This document shows positions 32,344 through 56,139 of a stretch of 64,000 nt of DNA, one piece after another. The notes beneath the pieces were generated by a model. The model did not search any database. It had not been told where the DNA came from and saw nothing but the letters and a program-made list of their open reading frames with translations. Both the position numbers and the translations under genes were made by a program. Origin of the DNA: Halalkaliarchaeum desulfuricum (GTDB lineage Archaea > Halobacteriota > Halobacteria > Halobacteriales > Haloferacaceae); contig NZ_CP025066.1 in the NCBI RefSeq assembly GCF_002952775.1, forward strand, positions 186,001 through 250,000, read 5' to 3'. Every line of letters begins with the position of its first letter. Position 1 is the stretch's first letter.

Positions 32344-32757
32344 ATGGGATACGCGTGTCCAGTCTGTGTGGTCAAACAGCCCGACGGCGAACACCTCGCA
32401 CATCACCTGGCGTTTACGGCGATGCTTCACGGCGACGAACACGAGACGTGGCTGGATGAGCACGCCCCAGGCTGGGAGAACTGCGGGCCCGAAGAACTGG
32501 CCGAAACCGTCGTCGAGGACGCGCCCGAGGCCGACGTCCCGGACGTGGATCACGCACACTCCCACGGGGAGTCAATTCCGGCCCACGACCGACGGACGCC
32601 GGCGGGCAGGGGTGGCGGATTCGACGACGAGGCGGCCTCCGTCCTGCAGGAGGCGCAGGCGCTCACTCGAGCGATGATGGACGACGAAGAAGAGAAAAAG
32701 GAAGAGGAAGATGACGGCGACGCGGGCGGAAACGGCGACAGCGACACCCACGAGTGA
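32344..32757 (+). CDS. DUF5810 protein (Cys/His-containing N-terminus)
   Basis: 137 residues. The N-terminus GYACPVCVVKQPDGEHLAHHLAFT has a Cys-x2-Cys and spaced histidines that look like a zinc site. The C-terminus is a highly acidic, Lys/Glu-rich tail. It fits the haloarchaeal DUF5810 family. The stop codon is embedded in GTGA, so the adjoining DUF5809 gene is probably coupled to it. The two families commonly occur side by side; the function is unknown. Confidence 0.82.
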   Translation: MGYACPVCVVKQPDGEHLAHHLAFTAMLHGDEHETWLDEHAPGWENCGPEELAETVVEDAPEADVPDVDHAHSHGESIPAHDRRTPAGRGGGFDDEAASVLQEAQALTRAMMDDEEEKKEEEDDGDAGGNGDSDTHE

Positions 32758-32795
32758 CCGACGAGCCTTTTGAACCCCCGTCCCGAGAAGGACCC

Positions 32796-33212
32796 ATGGA
32801 GACGACGGGAGTGTACGAACCCGAGACGATCGAGGAGGCACGGGAGGCCTACAGGGAGGCCGGCCCGGCGGCGAAAGTCGTCGTCCGCGAGACCGCAAGC
32901 GCAATGGCGTTCGACAGCGCCGAGTACGAGTCCCGCGTGACGAGCGAGGTCGTCGAGACCGCCCGCGACGCGCTGTTCGCGTCGTTGCTTTCCGTCCGGG
33001 TCGGGAGCCGCGAGGAGTTCGAGGAGTGGTGTGCGGATCGACCATCCTACGACAGCCGGGTCGTCGGCGGGGAGAACGTCGATCGGGTGGTCTGGCACGC
33101 CGCGCCGTTCACAGAAGAGATCGTTGCGGCGACGTTTCAGGACGCCCGGGAGGCCGCGATCGCGACGGTTAGGCGGCAGGCGTTCGGCGAGATATACCGG
33201 GATCGGTTGTAG
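32796..33212 (+). CDS. DUF5809 family protein
   Basis: 138 residues from the ATG at 32796 (METTGVYEPETIEEAREAY), which begins the conserved part and has GAGAAGG seven bases upstream. An in-frame GTG at 32754, overlapping the DUF5810 stop, would add 14 residues and is the alternative. It is a soluble helical protein containing PAAKVVVRETASAMAFD and VVETARDALFASLL. The function is unknown; pairing with DUF5810 suggests a shared role. Confidence 0.82.
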   Translation: METTGVYEPETIEEAREAYREAGPAAKVVVRETASAMAFDSAEYESRVTSEVVETARDALFASLLSVRVGSREEFEEWCADRPSYDSRVVGGENVDRVVWHAAPFTEEIVAATFQDAREAAIATVRRQAFGEIYRDRL

Positions 33213-33306: not shown

Positions 33307-34719
33307 ATGAACCGACGACGCCTACTCGCCGTGTCGGCCGCCCTCGCCGTCGGCGGGGTCGCCGGCTGTGTCGGCGACGGCCCAGGCGACAACGGCGGGT
33401 CGATGACCCCCGCCGGACCGCTCCCCGATGTCGACGACGAGACGCTCGCGGCGACGATTCGAAACGCCAACGGGTTCACCTTCGACCTGTTCGGCCGACT
33501 CGCCAGCGCTGCCGACGAGGACGGGGATCCCAACCTGTTTGCCTCCCCGCTGTCGGTGTCGACGGCGCTCGCGATGACGTACGCAGGGGCGAGAGGAGAA
33601 ACGCGCGAACAGATGCGCGCGGCGCTGCGATACGATCTCGGCGACGTCGGGAACGACAACGGAGAAAACGACGATGGAAACGGCGCCCCGAACGAAGCGC
33701 TCCACGGCGCGATCGCCGAACTGCTCTCCCGGCTGAACGAACGGGGCGAAGCGATCGATCCGGAGGACCTCCCGTCAGCGTACGACGAGGAGGACGATCC
33801 CGTTCCCTTCGAACTGTCGATTGTCAACGCCGTCTGGGGCCAGGAAGGCTACCCGTTCCGCGATGAGTATCTGGAGTTGCTCGAGACATACTACGGCGCG
33901 GGACTTCGAGAGGTCGATTACGTGAGCGATGCGGAATCCGCCCGCGAGGACATAAACGAGTGGGTGGCCGGACGGACCGAAGACCGAATCGACGAGCTCC
34001 TCCCGGGAGGCGCGCTTGACGAACTCACCCGGCTCGTGTTGACCAACGCCATCTACTTCCAGGCCAACTGGGCCGAGCCGTTCGAGGAACAGGCGACAGA
34101 GACCGCGCAGTTTACCACACTCGACGGGGAGTCGGTCGACGTTCCGATGATGCGGCACTCGGAGATTTCTGTTCCGTACGGAGAGGCCGAACTGTCCGGA
34201 GGCGACGTCGCGGGGGTCGAACTTCCGTACGTCGGCGACGAGGTCTCAATGCTAGTCGTTCTCCCCGAAGACGGGGCGTTCGAGTCGGTCGCCGACAACT
34301 TCGACGGCGACGACCTCGCCGCAGTCATCGAGGAACTGGAGCAACGGGAGGGGCGAGTCGAACTCCCGCGGTTCGAGTTCGAATCCGGCTTCCAGTTGCG
34401 CCCCGCCCTCGAGGAGCTCGGGATGGTCGAGGCGTTCGACCGCAATGAGGCCGACCTCACCGGGATGTACGATCCCGACGACCCCGCTGCCGGAGGCGAG
34501 AACCTCTTCGTCGACGACGTGTACCACGACAGCTACGTCGCCGTCGACGAGGAGGGGACCGAGGCGGCCGCCGCCACCGCCGTCGTCGTTTCCGCTGATT
34601 CGGCGCCGGCTGATCCCTTCGAATTCGTCGCAGACAGGCCGTTCCTGTTTCTGATCCGCGATCGGCCCACAGACGCGCTGCTGTTTTTCGGTCGCGTCGG
34701 CGATCCGACCGCGGAGTGA
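33307..34719 (+). CDS. Serpin-family protease inhibitor, exported lipoprotein
   Basis: 470 residues. The N-terminus NRRRLLAVSAALAVGGVAGC has a twin-arginine stretch and a lipobox, so the protein is predicted to be a Tat-exported lipoprotein on the cell surface. The mature protein is a complete serpin with FTFDLFGRLA, NLFASPLSVSTALAM, LVLTNAIYFQANWAEPF, and the reactive-centre hinge EEGTEAAAATA beginning at Glu415. The small-residue hinge is typical of inhibitory serpins. By alignment the scissile bond falls near Asp-Ser in SADSAPAD, but the loop is about three residues longer than in alpha-1-antitrypsin, so P1 is uncertain. The target is unknown. Confidence 0.92.
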   Translation: MNRRRLLAVSAALAVGGVAGCVGDGPGDNGGSMTPAGPLPDVDDETLAATIRNANGFTFDLFGRLASAADEDGDPNLFASPLSVSTALAMTYAGARGETREQMRAALRYDLGDVGNDNGENDDGNGAPNEALHGAIAELLSRLNERGEAIDPEDLPSAYDEEDDPVPFELSIVNAVWGQEGYPFRDEYLELLETYYGAGLREVDYVSDAESAREDINEWVAGRTEDRIDELLPGGALDELTRLVLTNAIYFQANWAEPFEEQATETAQFTTLDGESVDVPMMRHSEISVPYGEAELSGGDVAGVELPYVGDEVSMLVVLPEDGAFESVADNFDGDDLAAVIEELEQREGRVELPRFEFESGFQLRPALEELGMVEAFDRNEADLTGMYDPDDPAAGGENLFVDDVYHDSYVAVDEEGTEAAAATAVVVSADSAPADPFEFVADRPFLFLIRDRPTDALLFFGRVGDPTAE

Positions 34720-34825: not shown

Positions 34826-36061
34826 GTGACACGAAACCACAAACAACCGGAGGTGAACATCGGACTGGTCGGTCACGTCGACCACGGCAAGACGACGCTC
34901 GTACAGGCGCTGTCGGGGTCGTGGACCGACCAGCACTCCGAGGAGATGAAACGCGGCATCTCCATACGGCTCGGGTACGCGGACGCGACGTTCCGCGAGT
35001 GCCCGGGGATGGAAGATCCGGAACGATACACAGTCGAAGAGGAATGCCCCGACGGGGAGGAAAGCGAGCCGCTGCGGACGGTGTCGTTCGTCGACGCGCC
35101 GGGCCACGAGACGCTGATGGCGACGATGCTGGCGGGCGCCGCGATCATGGACGGCGCGGTGCTGGTGGTCAGCGCCACCGAGGACGTCCCCCAGGCGCAG
35201 ACCGAAGAGCACCTGATGGCGCTGGACATCATCGGCATCGACAACATCGTCGTCGCCCAGAACAAGATCGACCTCGTGGACCGCGACCGCGCAGTCGACC
35301 ACTACGAACAAATCCAGGAGTTCATCGAAGGAACGGTAGCGGAAGGATCGCCGATCATCCCGGTGAGCGCCCAGCAGAACGTGAACATGGACCTGCTCAT
35401 CCAGTCGATCGAGGAGGAAATTCCCACGCCTGAACGGAACTCGGACCGCGCATCGCGGATGTTCGCGGCCCGATCGTTCGACATCAACCGACCGGGCGCG
35501 ACCCACGAGGACCTGGTCGGCGGCGTCGTCGGTGGCTCCCTCGTCCACGGGACACTCTCGGTCGGTGACGAACTGGAACTCCGTCCCGGCCGCCAGGTCG
35601 AAGAGGGTGGGCAAACCGAGTGGCGATCCCTCGAGACGACGGTGCGGTCACTACAGGCCGGCGGCTCCCCCGTCGAGGAGGCGTCGCCGGGTGGACTTCT
35701 CGGCGTCGGCACCGGGCTGGATCCGAGCCTCACCAAAGGCGACGCGCTCGCCGGACAGGTCGCCGGCGAACCCGGAACGCTCCCGCCGACCCGCGAGTCG
35801 TTCGAGATGGAGGTCGAACTGCTCGATCGCGTCGTCGGAGACGGCGACGGTGACGGCAACGTCGAGGAGATCTCCACGGGCGAACCGCTCATGCTCACCG
35901 TCGGCACCGCCACGACCGTCGGCGCGGTGACGAGCGCACGCGACGGGGAGTGTGAGGTGAACCTCAAGCGTCCCGTCTGCGCCGAGGCCGGCGCCAAGAT
36001 CGCGATCAACCGGCGCGTCGGCGCGCGGTGGCGGCTCATCGGCGTCGGGACGCTCGAGTGA
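34826..36061 (+). CDS. Translation initiation factor aIF2 subunit gamma
   Basis: GTPase core of aIF2, which carries initiator tRNA to the small ribosomal subunit. The 411-residue protein has [10 protein letters not shown] (G1), [11 protein letters not shown] (switch I), DAPGHE (G3) and AQNKIDL (G4), then two beta-barrel domains. The zinc-knuckle region keeps only part of the usual cysteines (ECPGMEDP... EECPDG). The start is GTG with a strong ribosome-binding site. It leads an operon with PIN, Rpo7, Spt4-like protein and dephospho-CoA kinase genes. Confidence 0.96.
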
Positions 36062-51806: not shown

Positions 51807-52853
51807 TCAGGCCGGCGTCGCGAGCGGGTCGCGCCCACGTTCGAGCCGTTCTTCGGCGTACTCCCGGGCGGCCTGCAGGGGGGTCACGCCACGATCGTCG
51901 GCGCGCTCGTACAGCTCGATTAGCCGGTCGCCGATCGCGTCTGCCTTCTCGAAGGCGTCCTCGATCGTGCCATCCACGTGCTCGGTGTGGACGGTGATGA
52001 GTCCGCCGGCGTTGATGACGTAATCCGGGGCGTACCGGATCCCGCGGTCCTGGAGCATCTCCGCGTGGTCGCGACGCTTCAGTACGTTGTTCGCTCCGCC
52101 GGCCACGATCTCGCAGTTCAGTTGCGGGATCGTGTCGTCGTTCAACACGCCGCCGATCGCACACGGCGCGAACACGTCACACGGCTCCGCGTAGACGTCC
52201 TCGGGTGCGACGGTGGCGACGCCGTATTCGTCCGCGAACGACTCCAGCTGGTCGGTGTCGACGTCCGACACCGTCACGTCGGCCCCCCGCTCGAGTAGCC
52301 GTTCGGCCAGCCCCGTCCCGACCTTGCCGATGCCCTGGATCGTCACCGAGAGCTCCGACACTGGTCGATCGAGTTCGTATCTCGCGGTCTCCTCGACCCC
52401 GCGAAAGACGCCGTAGGCGGTCACCGGCGACGGATCGCCCAGCCCGTCGCTTACACCCACCACGTGGTCGGTATGGTCGGCGATGACGTCCAGGTCTTCG
52501 ACGCCGGTGTTGATGTCGACCGAGGTGATGTAGCGACCACCGAGCGCGTCGACCGCCTGTCCGTAGGCGGCCATCATCTCCGCAGTCTTCTGTTCCGGGT
52601 CGCCAACGATGACGGCCTTGCCTCCCCCGAGGTCCAGGTCGGCGGCCGCCGCCTTGTACGTCATCGCCTTCGAGAGACGCAACACGTCCTGGAGCGCGTC
52701 AGCCTCGGTGTCGTACGGAAGCATCCGCGTTCCGCCCAGCGCCGGCCCGAGCGTGGTGTCGTGTACGGCGACGATCGCCTGGAGACCCGTCTCCGGGTCC
52801 GAAACGTACGTTACCGCCTCGTGGCCGTAGTCGGTCATCCGGTCGAGAACCAT
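51807..52853 (-). CDS. Leucine-dehydrogenase-type Glu/Leu/Phe/Val dehydrogenase
   Basis: 348 residues. It oxidatively deaminates a branched-chain or aromatic amino acid with NAD. Family motifs are VAVHDTTLGPALGGTRM, LSKAMTYKAAAADLDLGGGKAVIVGD (with catalytic Lys) and GIGKVGTGLAERLLERGADV (NAD site). The short length and GGGKAVIVGD favour leucine/valine-type over glutamate-type enzymes. A near-palindromic site lies 17-32 bases upstream of the ATG. A MITE adjoins the stop codon. Confidence 0.9.
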   Translation of the reverse strand: MVLDRMTDYGHEAVTYVSDPETGLQAIVAVHDTTLGPALGGTRMLPYDTEADALQDVLRLSKAMTYKAAAADLDLGGGKAVIVGDPEQKTAEMMAAYGQAVDALGGRYITSVDINTGVEDLDVIADHTDHVVGVSDGLGDPSPVTAYGVFRGVEETARYELDRPVSELSVTIQGIGKVGTGLAERLLERGADVTVSDVDTDQLESFADEYGVATVAPEDVYAEPCDVFAPCAIGGVLNDDTIPQLNCEIVAGGANNVLKRRDHAEMLQDRGIRYAPDYVINAGGLITVHTEHVDGTIEDAFEKADAIGDRLIELYERADDRGVTPLQAAREYAEERLERGRDPLATPA

Positions 52854-52869
52854 GCCCTTATATTATGAA

Positions 52870-52885
52870 TATTCCTTAAAGAATA
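52870..52885. promoter_or_regulatory. Near-palindrome at the dehydrogenase promoter
   Basis: TATTCCTTAAAGAATA is symmetric at 14 of 16 positions and covers the TATA position for the gene starting at 52853. A repressor bound here would block TBP. An Lrp/AsnC-type regulator would fit an amino-acid gene, but this is inference. Confidence 0.5.
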
Positions 52886-52985
52886 CTGCGGTTTGGCTGG
52901 AGGGACGGTGTTGTCCATCCCGACGTGAACGAGGAACCGGGCGAGGCGGCGAAAGCGAGAAAACAACGGCGCTACAGGCGAGCCC

Positions 52986-53117
52986 CTACAGAAAGCCGCC
53001 GACGTGGACGGCCGCGAGCGCCTCCAGAAATGCGGGAAACCAGAGGCTGAGGAACCAGAGCAGAACGACGACGGTGAACGCCTTCATCAGGAACGTCCGT
53101 GGGTCGGATGGAATCAT
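52986..53117 (-). CDS. 43-residue membrane protein
   Basis: Starts MIPSDPRTFLMKAFTVVVLL and continues WFLSLWFPAFLEALAAVHV to a TAG at 52986. There is one clear hydrophobic segment after a basic residue, with Pro breaks. The codon use resembles neighbouring genes. No homologue is recognised; the hydrophobic pattern and the clean frame are the evidence. Confidence 0.45.
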   Translation of the reverse strand: MIPSDPRTFLMKAFTVVVLLWFLSLWFPAFLEALAAVHVGGFL

Positions 53118-53315
53118 CGTGAACTCGTGTTTCGACTTCTCGAGTGGACCCTACACGGGTATCTCGTAAAGAACTCCCGATTGTTTCCGACCCTCTGAGC
53201 AACCAGTCACTGTACTTCGGTGTCGCGGCTCACTCGCTGATGAACTTGTTCCTGTCAGCAAGGTCAAGAAGTATTATGAGTATGTCACGACAATTAGCAG
53301 ATAGGTTAAGCACCG

Positions 53316-53672
53316 ATGAGCAACACCCATGAACGCAACCAGCAGGTCAACGTTGTCGTCACAGAAGACCAGAAGGCACGGTGGAAACAGCATCTTGATG
53401 AAAATGGTGCGGAGTTCCAAAGCCTGTCTCACCTCATCCGACAGGCAGTCGAAAAAGAGGTCAGTAGTAACGAACCTGACACACAAACCCAGTCAGGACC
53501 AACCCGAGACAACAGCGAGGTTCTCGAAGCGATTGGGCGTCTCGACGACAAACTGCAGGGCTTCGAGACGAGGCTGGCGAGTATCGAGAACGGCGTTCGT
53601 CACGACCCCAACGTAAGAGAAGTCGCAAACCAGCTCTTCGAGCACCTCCCCACGAAGGCAGTGTTCAGATAA
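53316..53672 (+). pseudogene. Ribbon-helix-helix-like protein truncated by IS insertion
   Basis: 118 residues. The N-terminus QQVNVVVTEDQKARWKQHLDE followed by SLSHLIRQAVEKEV resembles the short DNA-binding proteins that precede integrases in haloarchaeal proviruses and plasmids. The last codons (VFR) and stop lie within the left end of the IS6 element, so the native C-terminus is lost. Base composition is lower in GC than the surroundings, suggesting it came with an integrated element. The family assignment is tentative. Confidence 0.6.
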
Positions 53673-54346
53673 GCTGATTCCATGCGAAGGCGAAGGCTCG
53701 AAGCCAATCGTCGGCGGTGTCTGCTTCGGCGTTGCTGAAACAGTTTGAGAAACAGATAGTTCGTCGTTTTACCTCTCGAAAGAGACGTTCGACGCTGTTC
53801 CGATTTCCATGTTTACCGGAGCTGAAATCGAGGCCGTGCCGGCGGCAGGCGTCTTTCAGTGAGTGGGAGCCATCGACGAGAAGCACGGCGCGTTCGACGT
53901 CGTGTTTCTCGCGGAGTTCAGAAAAAATGCGTGAGCAATCGCTTGTTTGTGGTCGCATCAAGCCTTGTGTGGAGCAATTCATTTGTTTCGGGATCGACAG
54001 CAGCGTACAGCCAGTACTGCTCATCATTGAGCTGGATCACGGTCTCGTCAACCGCAACGTGACCCGGACTCTGTCCAGATTCGGGCTGTAGATCTGCCTT
54101 GTGAACCCAGTTGTGAACAGTAGACCGTGCACGTTCGACACCAAATATTTCAAGAATAGATACAGTATTTGAAAGAGACTGTCCAGCAAGATGCAGCTGA
54201 ATACTGAGCTTCATCAGAAAACGTGGTGTCGCTTCGCGTTCGACAAACTCTAAGTCGATCTGGTCGATATTACCGCTGAGGCAGTCGTTTTCGGGCATAA
54301 GTCACTTTGAAAACGCACCGCCACTTTTCACTCCTTATCTGAACAC
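53661..54346. mobile_element. IS6-family insertion sequence (686 bp)
   Basis: Terminal inverted repeats GTGTTCAGATAAG (53661-53673) and CTTATCTGAACAC (54334-54346) match exactly over 13 bp. The single transposase gene is on the minus strand and split by a frameshift. The flanking 8 bp (CGAAGGCA and CACCAGCG) do not match, so there is no target duplication. This points to rearrangement after insertion. A related remnant lies at about 55214-55334. Confidence 0.9.
53668..54298 (-). pseudogene. IS6-family transposase, frameshifted at a T6 run
   Basis: The first frame (54298-53918) has the N-terminal zinc-like/HTH part and the first catalytic Asp in HVAVDETVIQLNDEQYWLYA. It ends with LLTHFF and TGA. 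A +1-shifted frame continues with SELREKHDVERAVLLVDGS (second Asp) and GNRNSVERLFREVKRR (catalytic Glu) to about 53665. The switch falls in CATTTTTTCTGA; removing one T or adding two restores a full ~210-residue DDE transposase. It is either inactivated or expressed by slippage. Confidence 0.85.
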
Positions 54347-54374
54347 CACCAGCGTGGGGGGTGTGATGAGTCGC

Positions 54375-55148
54375 TTACCCCGAACTGCTCATTCCACCAT
54401 CCAAGACGAGTGATTCCCCGTTGACGTAATCGCTCAGGTCGCTTGCCAGATATAGCGCCGCGTCGGCGACATCGCCCGGCGTTCCTGCACGACCACTCGG
54501 AACATTCTCGAGAAACTCATCTTCCGCGTCAGTCCCAAGAATCGGCACATCTTCAGTCGTCATCTTGGTTTCGATGAGTCCCGGATGAATCGCGTTGACT
54601 CTGATTCCTTCCGGGCCGAGCGCGTCAGCGGAGGCGTAGGTCATCAGTCGGACTGCGCCCTTACTGGCACAGTAGGAGACGTATGCGCCGGTTCCTTCCA
54701 GTCCGGCAACGCTGGAGAGGTTGATAATCGATCCGCCACCGTTGTCGACCATCCGTTTGGCTGCTCGTTGTGTCCCGAAGTAGACTCCTTTCACGTTGAT
54801 ATCCATCAGCCAGTCGAACTCCTCCTCCGAGAGACTCAACATATCTTCGGACCGGAACACGCCGGCGTTGTTAACCATCGTATCGACGCCGCCAAACTCT
54901 TCGGCGGCATCCATTGCACTGTCAAGGTCATCGATACTGGTCACGTCACACTCTACGAAGGTTGCACTCGCCTCTGTCTCTTCTTCGACACTTTCGTGTG
55001 TCGGCGTTCCGCCTTCACGTGGTTCCACCTGAATATCCGCAACAACAATATCGGCACCGTGTTCCGCGAATCGGTGAGCCATCGCCCGTCCGTTCCCGCT
55101 CGCTGCCCCAGTGATTACTGCCGTTTGTCCGCTGAGCATTGCTGTCAT
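54375..55148 (-). CDS. Short-chain dehydrogenase/reductase
   Basis: 257 residues. The cofactor motif TGAASGNGRA, the NNAGV motif near 93, the catalytic Ser in INLSSVAGL and Tyr-x3-Lys in SYCASKG are all present. The C-terminal DYVNGESLVLDGG is standard. An Asp after the second strand (VVADIQ) favours NAD(H). The substrate is unknown. The gene lies between an IS6 element and an IS6 remnant and has lower GC than its surroundings, so it was probably carried in. The start could be the ATG at 55139. Confidence 0.9.
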   Translation of the reverse strand: MTAMLSGQTAVITGAASGNGRAMAHRFAEHGADIVVADIQVEPREGGTPTHESVEEETEASATFVECDVTSIDDLDSAMDAAEEFGGVDTMVNNAGVFRSEDMLSLSEEEFDWLMDINVKGVYFGTQRAAKRMVDNGGGSIINLSSVAGLEGTGAYVSYCASKGAVRLMTYASADALGPEGIRVNAIHPGLIETKMTTEDVPILGTDAEDEFLENVPSGRAGTPGDVADAALYLASDLSDYVNGESLVLDGGMSSSG

Positions 55149-55572
55149 TGGCTGAACACCGTTTTGTTATTGGACAAGTACTGGAATAAAGATATGTGTC
55201 GGTTTAAAGGTATTTTTCAGTTAAGCTAATTCCATGCGAAGGCGAGCAATCTAAGCCATTCTTCAGCAGTTTCTGCTCTGGTTTTGCTGAAACGGTTTGA
55301 GAAACTGGTAGCTCTGCATTTTATGTCACGCAAATTCTGGCTTGTAACAACCCCCACGTGGAGCGTTTGTAGCGACAAAATGGGGCTTTTCGTCTCTGTC
55401 CAACGGCTGTCCCTGATTGAGACGTATCTACGTGATTTGCTACGTCAAGAGGCAGAAACGGCCTCTGGATACGGACAAAACCGGAGAGGAGATCGCGGCT
55501 AACTCGGTGCCCATTTTACTCAAGCACAGAAGTCACTACTGACCTAGACAAATGTAGAACTCTTCTATATTG
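55149..55572. other. Intergenic stretch with IS6 remnant and unassigned sequence
   Basis: The first 65 bases hold the SDR promoter (minus strand). From about 55214 to 55334 the sequence is a diverged copy of the left end of the IS6 element. The remaining 240 bases include an open plus-strand frame (to 55502) and low-GC sequence that I could not assign; it may be a relic of the same mobile material. Confidence 0.6.
55214..55334. mobile_element. Remnant of an IS6-family element
   Basis: Sequence such as TTCCATGCGAAGGCGA and GTTTGAGAAACTGGTAG parallels the end of the complete IS at 53661 (TTCCATGCGAAGGCGA and GTTTGAGAAACAGATAG). On the minus strand it encodes the last ~35 residues of the transposase (SFSNRFSKTRAETAEEWLR). 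The rest of the element is gone. Confidence 0.8.
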
Positions 55573-56139
55573 TCACTCCGAAATGAACTTGTTGTCCCGC
55601 CAGTTCACGCCGCCCTCCCCGTCGCCGCTGCGGGGGCTTTCGACCACTTCCACGCTCGCGGGACGTTCCTCCCCCTCGACGATCCGGGTCGCCTGGAGTT
55701 CACCGTCGGACTCGGTGATCGCGGTGAGCGTCCCCTTCTCGGACAACAGCGCGATCTCACGGAGCACCAGGAACATCGGATACTGGAGGGCGGTGTTTTG
55801 CAGCACCGTCTCCCGGTCGCCTTTAAAACAGGCGAACTCGACGAGCTCGGAGGGGATCTCCTCTTCCTCCTCGCGGGCCCACTGCGGGCCGCCCGCCCGG
55901 GGGGGCTCCTCCTCGTAGACGCGCGTTTCGGTGACGCTCGCCTTCAGCTGTGCCGTCGGCGTGTACTTGCTGATGCTGTCGTCCGCCGAGACGGCCTTCA
56001 AAATCAGCGTGTTGTTCCGCCGGGTGATCTCGACGTCTTCCACCTCCGGCGGCAGTTCTGGGTCGTCGTCGAAGAACGATTCGACGTCTTCGAGGGGCAG
56101 TTCCAGCGTCGAGTGAAGTCTGAATACGCGGCCTGACAT
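55573..56139 (-). CDS. Conserved haloarchaeal protein (DUF7110-like)
   Basis: 188 residues from the ATG at 56139 (SGRVFRLHSTLELPLEDVESFF). The protein is soluble, acidic, with mixed alpha/beta segments (VEITRRNNTLILKAVSADDSISKYTPTAQLKASVT) and one cysteine. It looks like a well-conserved haloarchaeal family of unknown function. The upstream open frame was not included because it has no similarity. The conserved N-terminus supports this start. Confidence 0.78.
   Translation of the reverse strand: MSGRVFRLHSTLELPLEDVESFFDDDPELPPEVEDVEITRRNNTLILKAVSADDSISKYTPTAQLKASVTETRVYEEEPPRAGGPQWAREEEEEIPSELVEFACFKGDRETVLQNTALQYPMFLVLREIALLSEKGTLTAITESDGELQATRIVEGEERPASVEVVESPRSGDGEGGVNWRDNKFISE

Follow-up and report, generated by a model that had tools for sequence, protein, structure and literature searches.

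A predicted lipid-anchored serpin of Halalkaliarchaeum desulfuricum with an inhibitory hinge and a reactive loop of canonical length

Most prokaryotic serpins are described as carrying transport peptides, some being sorted as membrane anchored, and the 2021 superfamily study reports no systematic trend of localisation with phylogeny among them (PMC8233489). Chloropin of Chlorobium limicola has a canonical native inhibitory fold, the hinge ExGTEAAAA and a P1' Ser; it differs from the protein described here in its P1 Arg and its signal peptide for secretion, where ours has a P1 Asp and is a predicted Tat lipoprotein (PMC10090351). The archaeal serpins Tk-serpin and Pnserpin are inhibitory as well, reportedly acting on subtilisin- and chymotrypsin-like proteases (PMC8233489), but they belong to hyperthermophiles and are likened to our protein by description. 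The same kind of likeness applies to miropin of Tannerella forsythia, a bacterial serpin suggested to be cell-surface exposed (PMC4604654, citing another paper); its bearer, however, is host-associated and miropin is thought to act on host proteases. Within the same class, Nmag_2110 of Natrialba magadii is, from its description, the same kind of protein; it is listed as a putative serpin protease inhibitor, the one serpin gene named for this organism, and a subtilisin inhibitor was purified separately from N. magadii, its gene not known (PMC3403918). Searches of the open-access literature gave, among the matches listed, no report of a haloarchaeal lipoprotein serpin. The counts given below show a localisation trend within one phylum, unlike the picture in PMC8233489.

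The serpin gene examined here lies in a stretch of 64,000 nucleotides of the H. desulfuricum genome (NZ_CP025066.1, 186,001 to 250,000, forward strand), referred to below as the window; its features are collected in Table 1. The frame of 470 codons is intact, stays open upstream of the ATG at 33307 and closes with a stop at 34717-34719; 33307 is the start that yields the signal sequence MNRRRLLAVSAALAVGGVAGC. The match to the Pfam serpin profile PF00079 (E = 5.8e-107, 358.5 bits against a cut-off of 27) spans profile positions 2-370 of 370, a full serpin domain, and the top PDB sequence match was 8gxv (E = 3.4e-64), both being far above chance. The 8gxv entry is labelled only as a serpin, and we take it to be chloropin. 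A search of NCBIfam with the protein gave no match, and an AlphaFold2 model built from only 4 sequences (mean pLDDT 35.1) adds nothing on the fold or on loop exposure. This was the single serpin found in the host genome (one contig, 3.31 Mb). The serpin at L096, from the same genus, keeps signal, loop and body, with 86% body identity and an identical loop. Judged by sequence, the window protein is an inhibitory serpin of conventional type for which a lipid anchor is predicted, and it adds no more than a further member to its group. The body also contains an Asn/Asp-rich acidic insertion around GNDNGENDDGNGAPN (33630-33700), missing in L001, L002 and L003 in alignment A1.

Table 1. Features of the serpin locus and its immediate neighbours, in window coordinates.
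Feature	Coordinates	Strand	Basis
DUF5809, upstream neighbour (context only)	32754..33212	+	PF19125
Serpin gene, 470 aa, ATG to TGA	33307..34719	+	PF00079, ORF and sequence
Predicted Tat signal peptide with lipobox VAGC; would-be lipidated Cys is residue 21	33307..33369	+	Sequence; pattern common to 106 of 119 haloarchaeal serpins
Linker, predicted anchor Cys to serpin domain	33370..33462	+	Pfam domain start at residue 53
Serpin domain	33463..34707	+	Pfam residues 53-467
Reactive loop, hinge to P1 (P17-P1, EEGTEAAAATAVVVSAD)	34549..34599	+	Ungapped antithrombin-III alignment; family alignment
Predicted scissile bond, P1 Asp / P1' Ser	34597..34602	+	Aligned with antithrombin Arg-Ser
eIF2 gamma, downstream neighbour (context only)	34826..36061	+	PF00009, PF09173

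The N-terminus reads directly as a twin arginine, a hydrophobic stretch and then a lipobox, the Tat/lipobox signal that the first-pass annotation had claimed; the assignment is from our own pattern scan rather than from the TatLipo program. With copies and fragments removed, 106 of 119 distinct haloarchaeal serpins combine a lipobox with an RR signal (KR in one case) by our own patterns, and the other 13 have an RR signal but no lipobox. Read individually, the N-termini of these 13 resemble Tat signals with a hydrophobic stretch behind them; the RR of L049 and L097 was taken from the N-terminus listing instead of the script's pick. Under slightly different rules, signal and lipobox together were found in 104 of 122 serpin entries (duplicates and fragments included) and in 40 of the 597 remaining ORFs at the serpin loci, which indicates that the enrichment is real. 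The class with RR and no lipobox is unspecific, because 142 of the 597 control ORFs fit it too. Loss of the signal in close homologues had been named beforehand as grounds for giving up the claim; L096 keeps its signal, yet 13 of the 119 rows are without lipobox, and lipobox gain or loss among haloarchaeal serpins takes at least four changes on the tree (L123 omitted). In one clade without lipobox (L118, L120, L121 and L122), the RR signal is accompanied by a glycine-rich segment that ends in LWH or VWY, and the loop is much shorter; these proteins may have a different anchor or a changed function.

Beyond the class, a lipobox was present in 28 of 32 top-scoring serpins of the phylum. These 32 come from the 30 best-scoring loci, which cover 30 of the 53 serpin-positive genomes found outside it, and are not a random sample. 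An RR precedes the hydrophobic stretch in 6 of these 32, all 6 falling among the 28 with a lipobox, and 2 fit a stricter Tat pattern. Taken with the 106 of 119 haloarchaeal rows, these counts make lipid anchoring look like the rule here. They predict a lipid anchor for most of the sampled serpins of the phylum, by way of Tat-type signals in haloarchaea and mainly of others, presumably Sec signals, elsewhere. It is in this regularity across the group that the interest of the window protein lies. Most haloarchaeal lipoproteins are described as predicted Tat substrates (PMC2945643).

The hinge of the window serpin, EEGTEAAAAT, is the hinge of small residues that had been noted as expected of an inhibitory serpin, and its P17-P9 segment fits in full the inhibitory motif ExGTEAAAA (PMC8233489). 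Among the haloarchaeal rows the hinge is almost invariant, with E at P17, G at P15, T at P14 and T at P8 each in 118 of 119 rows and A at P9 in 114, one row being gapped there. The loop EEGTEAAAATAVVVSADSAPADPFEFVADRPF aligned to that of antithrombin-III without a gap, with Asp-Ser placed on its Arg-Ser bond; the loop length is therefore canonical (17 residues from P17 to P1). The two proteins, kin by superfamily only, thus share loop length and a P1' Ser and differ at P1, Arg in antithrombin-III and Asp in ours. Antithrombin-III is a secreted, soluble, heparin-regulated protein. From P15 to the RPF motif the window serpin has 30 residues, the second commonest length among haloarchaeal serpins (66 rows have 29 and 28 rows have 30, among the 117 of 119 in which the span could be read). 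An unusually long reactive loop, about three residues longer than usual according to the first-pass annotation, was rejected on both alignment and family spans. The loop of alpha-1-antitrypsin is about three residues shorter, and this protein may have been the yardstick behind that claim. The observation of Asp-Ser near the predicted scissile bond stands: the antithrombin-III and family alignments both place it at P1-P1'.

A serpin match was found in 99 of 391 genomes of the class and in 42 of 86 genera. With about a quarter of the sampled relatives positive, the gene is ordinary for its group, and the idea that serpins are rare in archaea was dropped for this class. Of the earlier observation, then, the ORF, the serpin assignment, the signal, the hinge and Asp-Ser were borne out and the long loop and rarity were not; of its interpretation, sequence and relatives uphold a serpin that is a surface lipoprotein and has an inhibitory hinge, the long loop and rarity in the class again falling away. 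Among the 99 positive genomes, G197, G065 and G082 hold fragments only and G052 has one in-frame stop, while several genomes have two or three serpin copies, some in tandem. In the phylum sample, 67 of 294 genomes had a serpin match.

A quick tree of 85 rows (52 of the 119 haloarchaeal serpins, 32 from elsewhere in the phylum and one from a bacterium) placed the haloarchaeal serpins on one side of a branch with SH-aLRT support of 100; with only one bacterial row, bacterial kin may still fall among them. The window protein pairs with L096 (support 100), inside a set of 11 rows (96). The sampled loci are L005-L123 for haloarchaea and L167-L196 for other members of the phylum. In the 119 haloarchaeal rows, a serpin that recurred in an overlapping locus, or shared its last 200 residues with another, was counted once (L019 was merged with L017). 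Rows dropped were L001 (the same serpin as L067), L003 (bacterial), the fragments L053, L124 and L125, and the second serpin ORF of L051, the same as that of L023, which is cut; L123 was kept out of the trees, L126 had no match, and G366:C167 is not in the set.

We think it reasonably probable that the window protein is a Tat-exported suicide inhibitor, tethered through Cys21, that shields the cell from secreted serine proteases. The serpin would fold in the cytoplasm and then be exported by the Tat pathway, and a lipid on Cys21 would hold it at the outer face of the membrane. A protease cutting the exposed loop near Asp-Ser would cause the hinge to insert into sheet A, and the enzyme would be trapped in a covalent complex, a one-shot inhibition. 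The likeliest targets would be secreted serine proteases at the surface, halolysin-type subtilases of the cell itself or of its neighbours, for which the serpin would act as a local shield. If the anchoring is true, a metastable protein is moved across the membrane in folded form, and the field of targets shrinks to proteases that are secreted or at the surface, a question directly testable in genetically tractable haloarchaea.

For the targets, the host genome offers 7 matches to S8 subtilases, two of them in one frame, with Tat-like signals on L128 and L129, and it also encodes L134, which is trypsin-like (HtrA-like) and has a Tat lipobox signal. Of the 99 genomes with a serpin match, 97 also had an S8 match, as did 240 of the 292 genomes without one, a comparison confounded by phylogeny and made by eye from two tables in which 34 S8-negative genomes are without names. 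The serpin-positive genomes without an S8 match are G262 and G293. Halolysin as the target is a guess.

The residue at the predicted bond might point to another kind of partner. An inhibitory surface serpin might be directed at a protease that cuts after Asp or Glu, for instance the enzyme responsible for the caspase-like (P1 Asp) activity described in Haloferax volcanii extracts, rather than at a general halolysin; we regard this as unlikely. The window serpin has Asp at the canonical P1. Immediately ahead of the conserved Ser, 52 of the 119 haloarchaeal rows have E, 21 have D, 20 have T and 16 have V, with S at P1' in 97 and P at P3' in 98. Asp-Ser matches a pattern of the family, residue-Ser-x-Pro, in which the residue ahead of Ser is often acidic, and is not peculiar to the window protein. 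Of the 32 top-scoring serpins from outside the class, 9 carry K, 7 carry G and 5 carry T at the 15th position from P15, and a single one carries an acidic residue there. Strong LEVDase activity is reported for extracts of H. volcanii (PMC3615174), a species among the control genomes with a serpin match. That activity, however, was described in cell extracts, not at the surface, and Glu exceeds Asp at the site, contrary to caspase preference. The acid excess is also modest: acid averages 28% across the variable columns of haloarchaeal serpins, 14 of 156 such columns equal or exceed the pre-Ser column, and the site takes at least 18 changes between acid and other residues on the tree. For this reason Asp-Ser was rejected as proof of a caspase-like target. 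A strict count from P15, which makes the 15th residue P1, finds acid there in only 23 of 118 haloarchaeal rows. Most rows have a loop one residue shorter before the bond (a gap at P2 in 73 of 119), which leaves the bond actually cut uncertain in those rows. An acidic P1 bias is a candidate haloarchaeal trait, but general halophile acidity may explain it. A wider version of the idea, in which haloarchaeal serpins would form a lipid-anchored clade that crosses the membrane by Tat in a folded, metastable state and whose acidic-Ser sites would meet an Asp/Glu-specific surface or exported protease, maybe one connected with haloarchaeal caspase-like activity, is in our judgement highly improbable.

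Two further readings concern whether the protein inhibits anything at the surface. As a non-inhibitory or substrate-like serpin it could be a surface binding or scaffold protein, in keeping with an unnamed target and with a search of the open-access literature that gave, among the matches listed, no report of haloarchaeal serpin activity. Non-inhibitory serpins usually lose the hinge pattern, however, and here it is almost invariant in 119 rows. Among haloarchaeal relatives the loop also changes faster than the body on average, loops (P6-P6') being 52% identical where bodies are 70-80% identical (361 related, non-independent pairs). Any flexible loop may drift, which weakens this argument, and the P1 column is moderately variable, 118 of 427 columns having higher entropy. 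In some pairs the loop is as conserved as the body or more so: the window loop matches the L096 loop exactly and resembles the L026 loop more closely than the two bodies resemble each other, and in the pairs L009/L035 and L050/L073 loop and body are conserved to nearly the same degree. Overall we find the non-inhibitory reading very unlikely. Tat cargo folds in the cytoplasm before export, so a native serpin could meet cytoplasmic proteases; on this reading it would act inside the cell and the signal would provide only a late exit. We would give this little credence. Hub-like prokaryotic serpins, with Haloferax and Natrialba among the organisms encoding them, have been proposed for intracellular housekeeping, but the same study allows Group S serpins as guards against exogenous proteases (PMC8233489). 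Against an intracellular role, too, are the RR or KR signals of all 119 rows, with a lipobox in 106, and the lipoboxes of 28 of the 32 top-scoring others.

Tandem serpin paralogues at L012, L016, L023 and L024 have loops that differ more than their bodies, with the differences in L012, L016 and L024 lying around the bond.

The neighbours of the window serpin are housekeeping genes or DUFs, and this context names no target. Upstream are FttA, DUF5518, a thiamine-binding protein (on the opposite strand), DUF5810 and DUF5809; downstream are eIF2 gamma, a PIN protein and an Rpb7/RpoE-like protein. No protease gene adjoins the serpin, and a protease-inhibitor operon was rejected, the gene sitting between DUF5809 and eIF2 gamma. 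The same interval holds a serpin in G318 and G054 (L096 and L026). Among 30 eIF2 gamma loci, L139, L148 and L165 have DUF5809 close to eIF2 gamma and no serpin between them, as does L141 across a gap of ~0.8 kb; L140 has another arrangement, and most of the remaining loci have no DUF5809 within the 1.5 kb flank. L139, L141, L148 and L165 thus point to serpin gain or loss at a conserved place. Across 89 serpin loci, where neighbour clustering was blurred by wrong-frame ORFs and was rechecked, a putative metallopeptidase cluster with an HELTH motif and a weak DUF6782 match (PF20573, below its cut-off) lies within 4 kb of the serpin in 8, including L087 (7670-9172). The shared gene order of a few related genomes is likely behind this recurrence, and a metallopeptidase is not an expected target of a serpin. 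By motif only, an S8-like pair occurs in the flanks of 1 of the 89 loci (L116) and an S1-like motif in L059 and L094. A sigma-70 promoter scan, with a model not meant for archaea, led nowhere. Elsewhere in the window, G+C falls to 0.55-0.60 at 52001-56000, and every ORF between 52853 and 54375 is shorter than 150 codons; this stretch is possibly foreign DNA.
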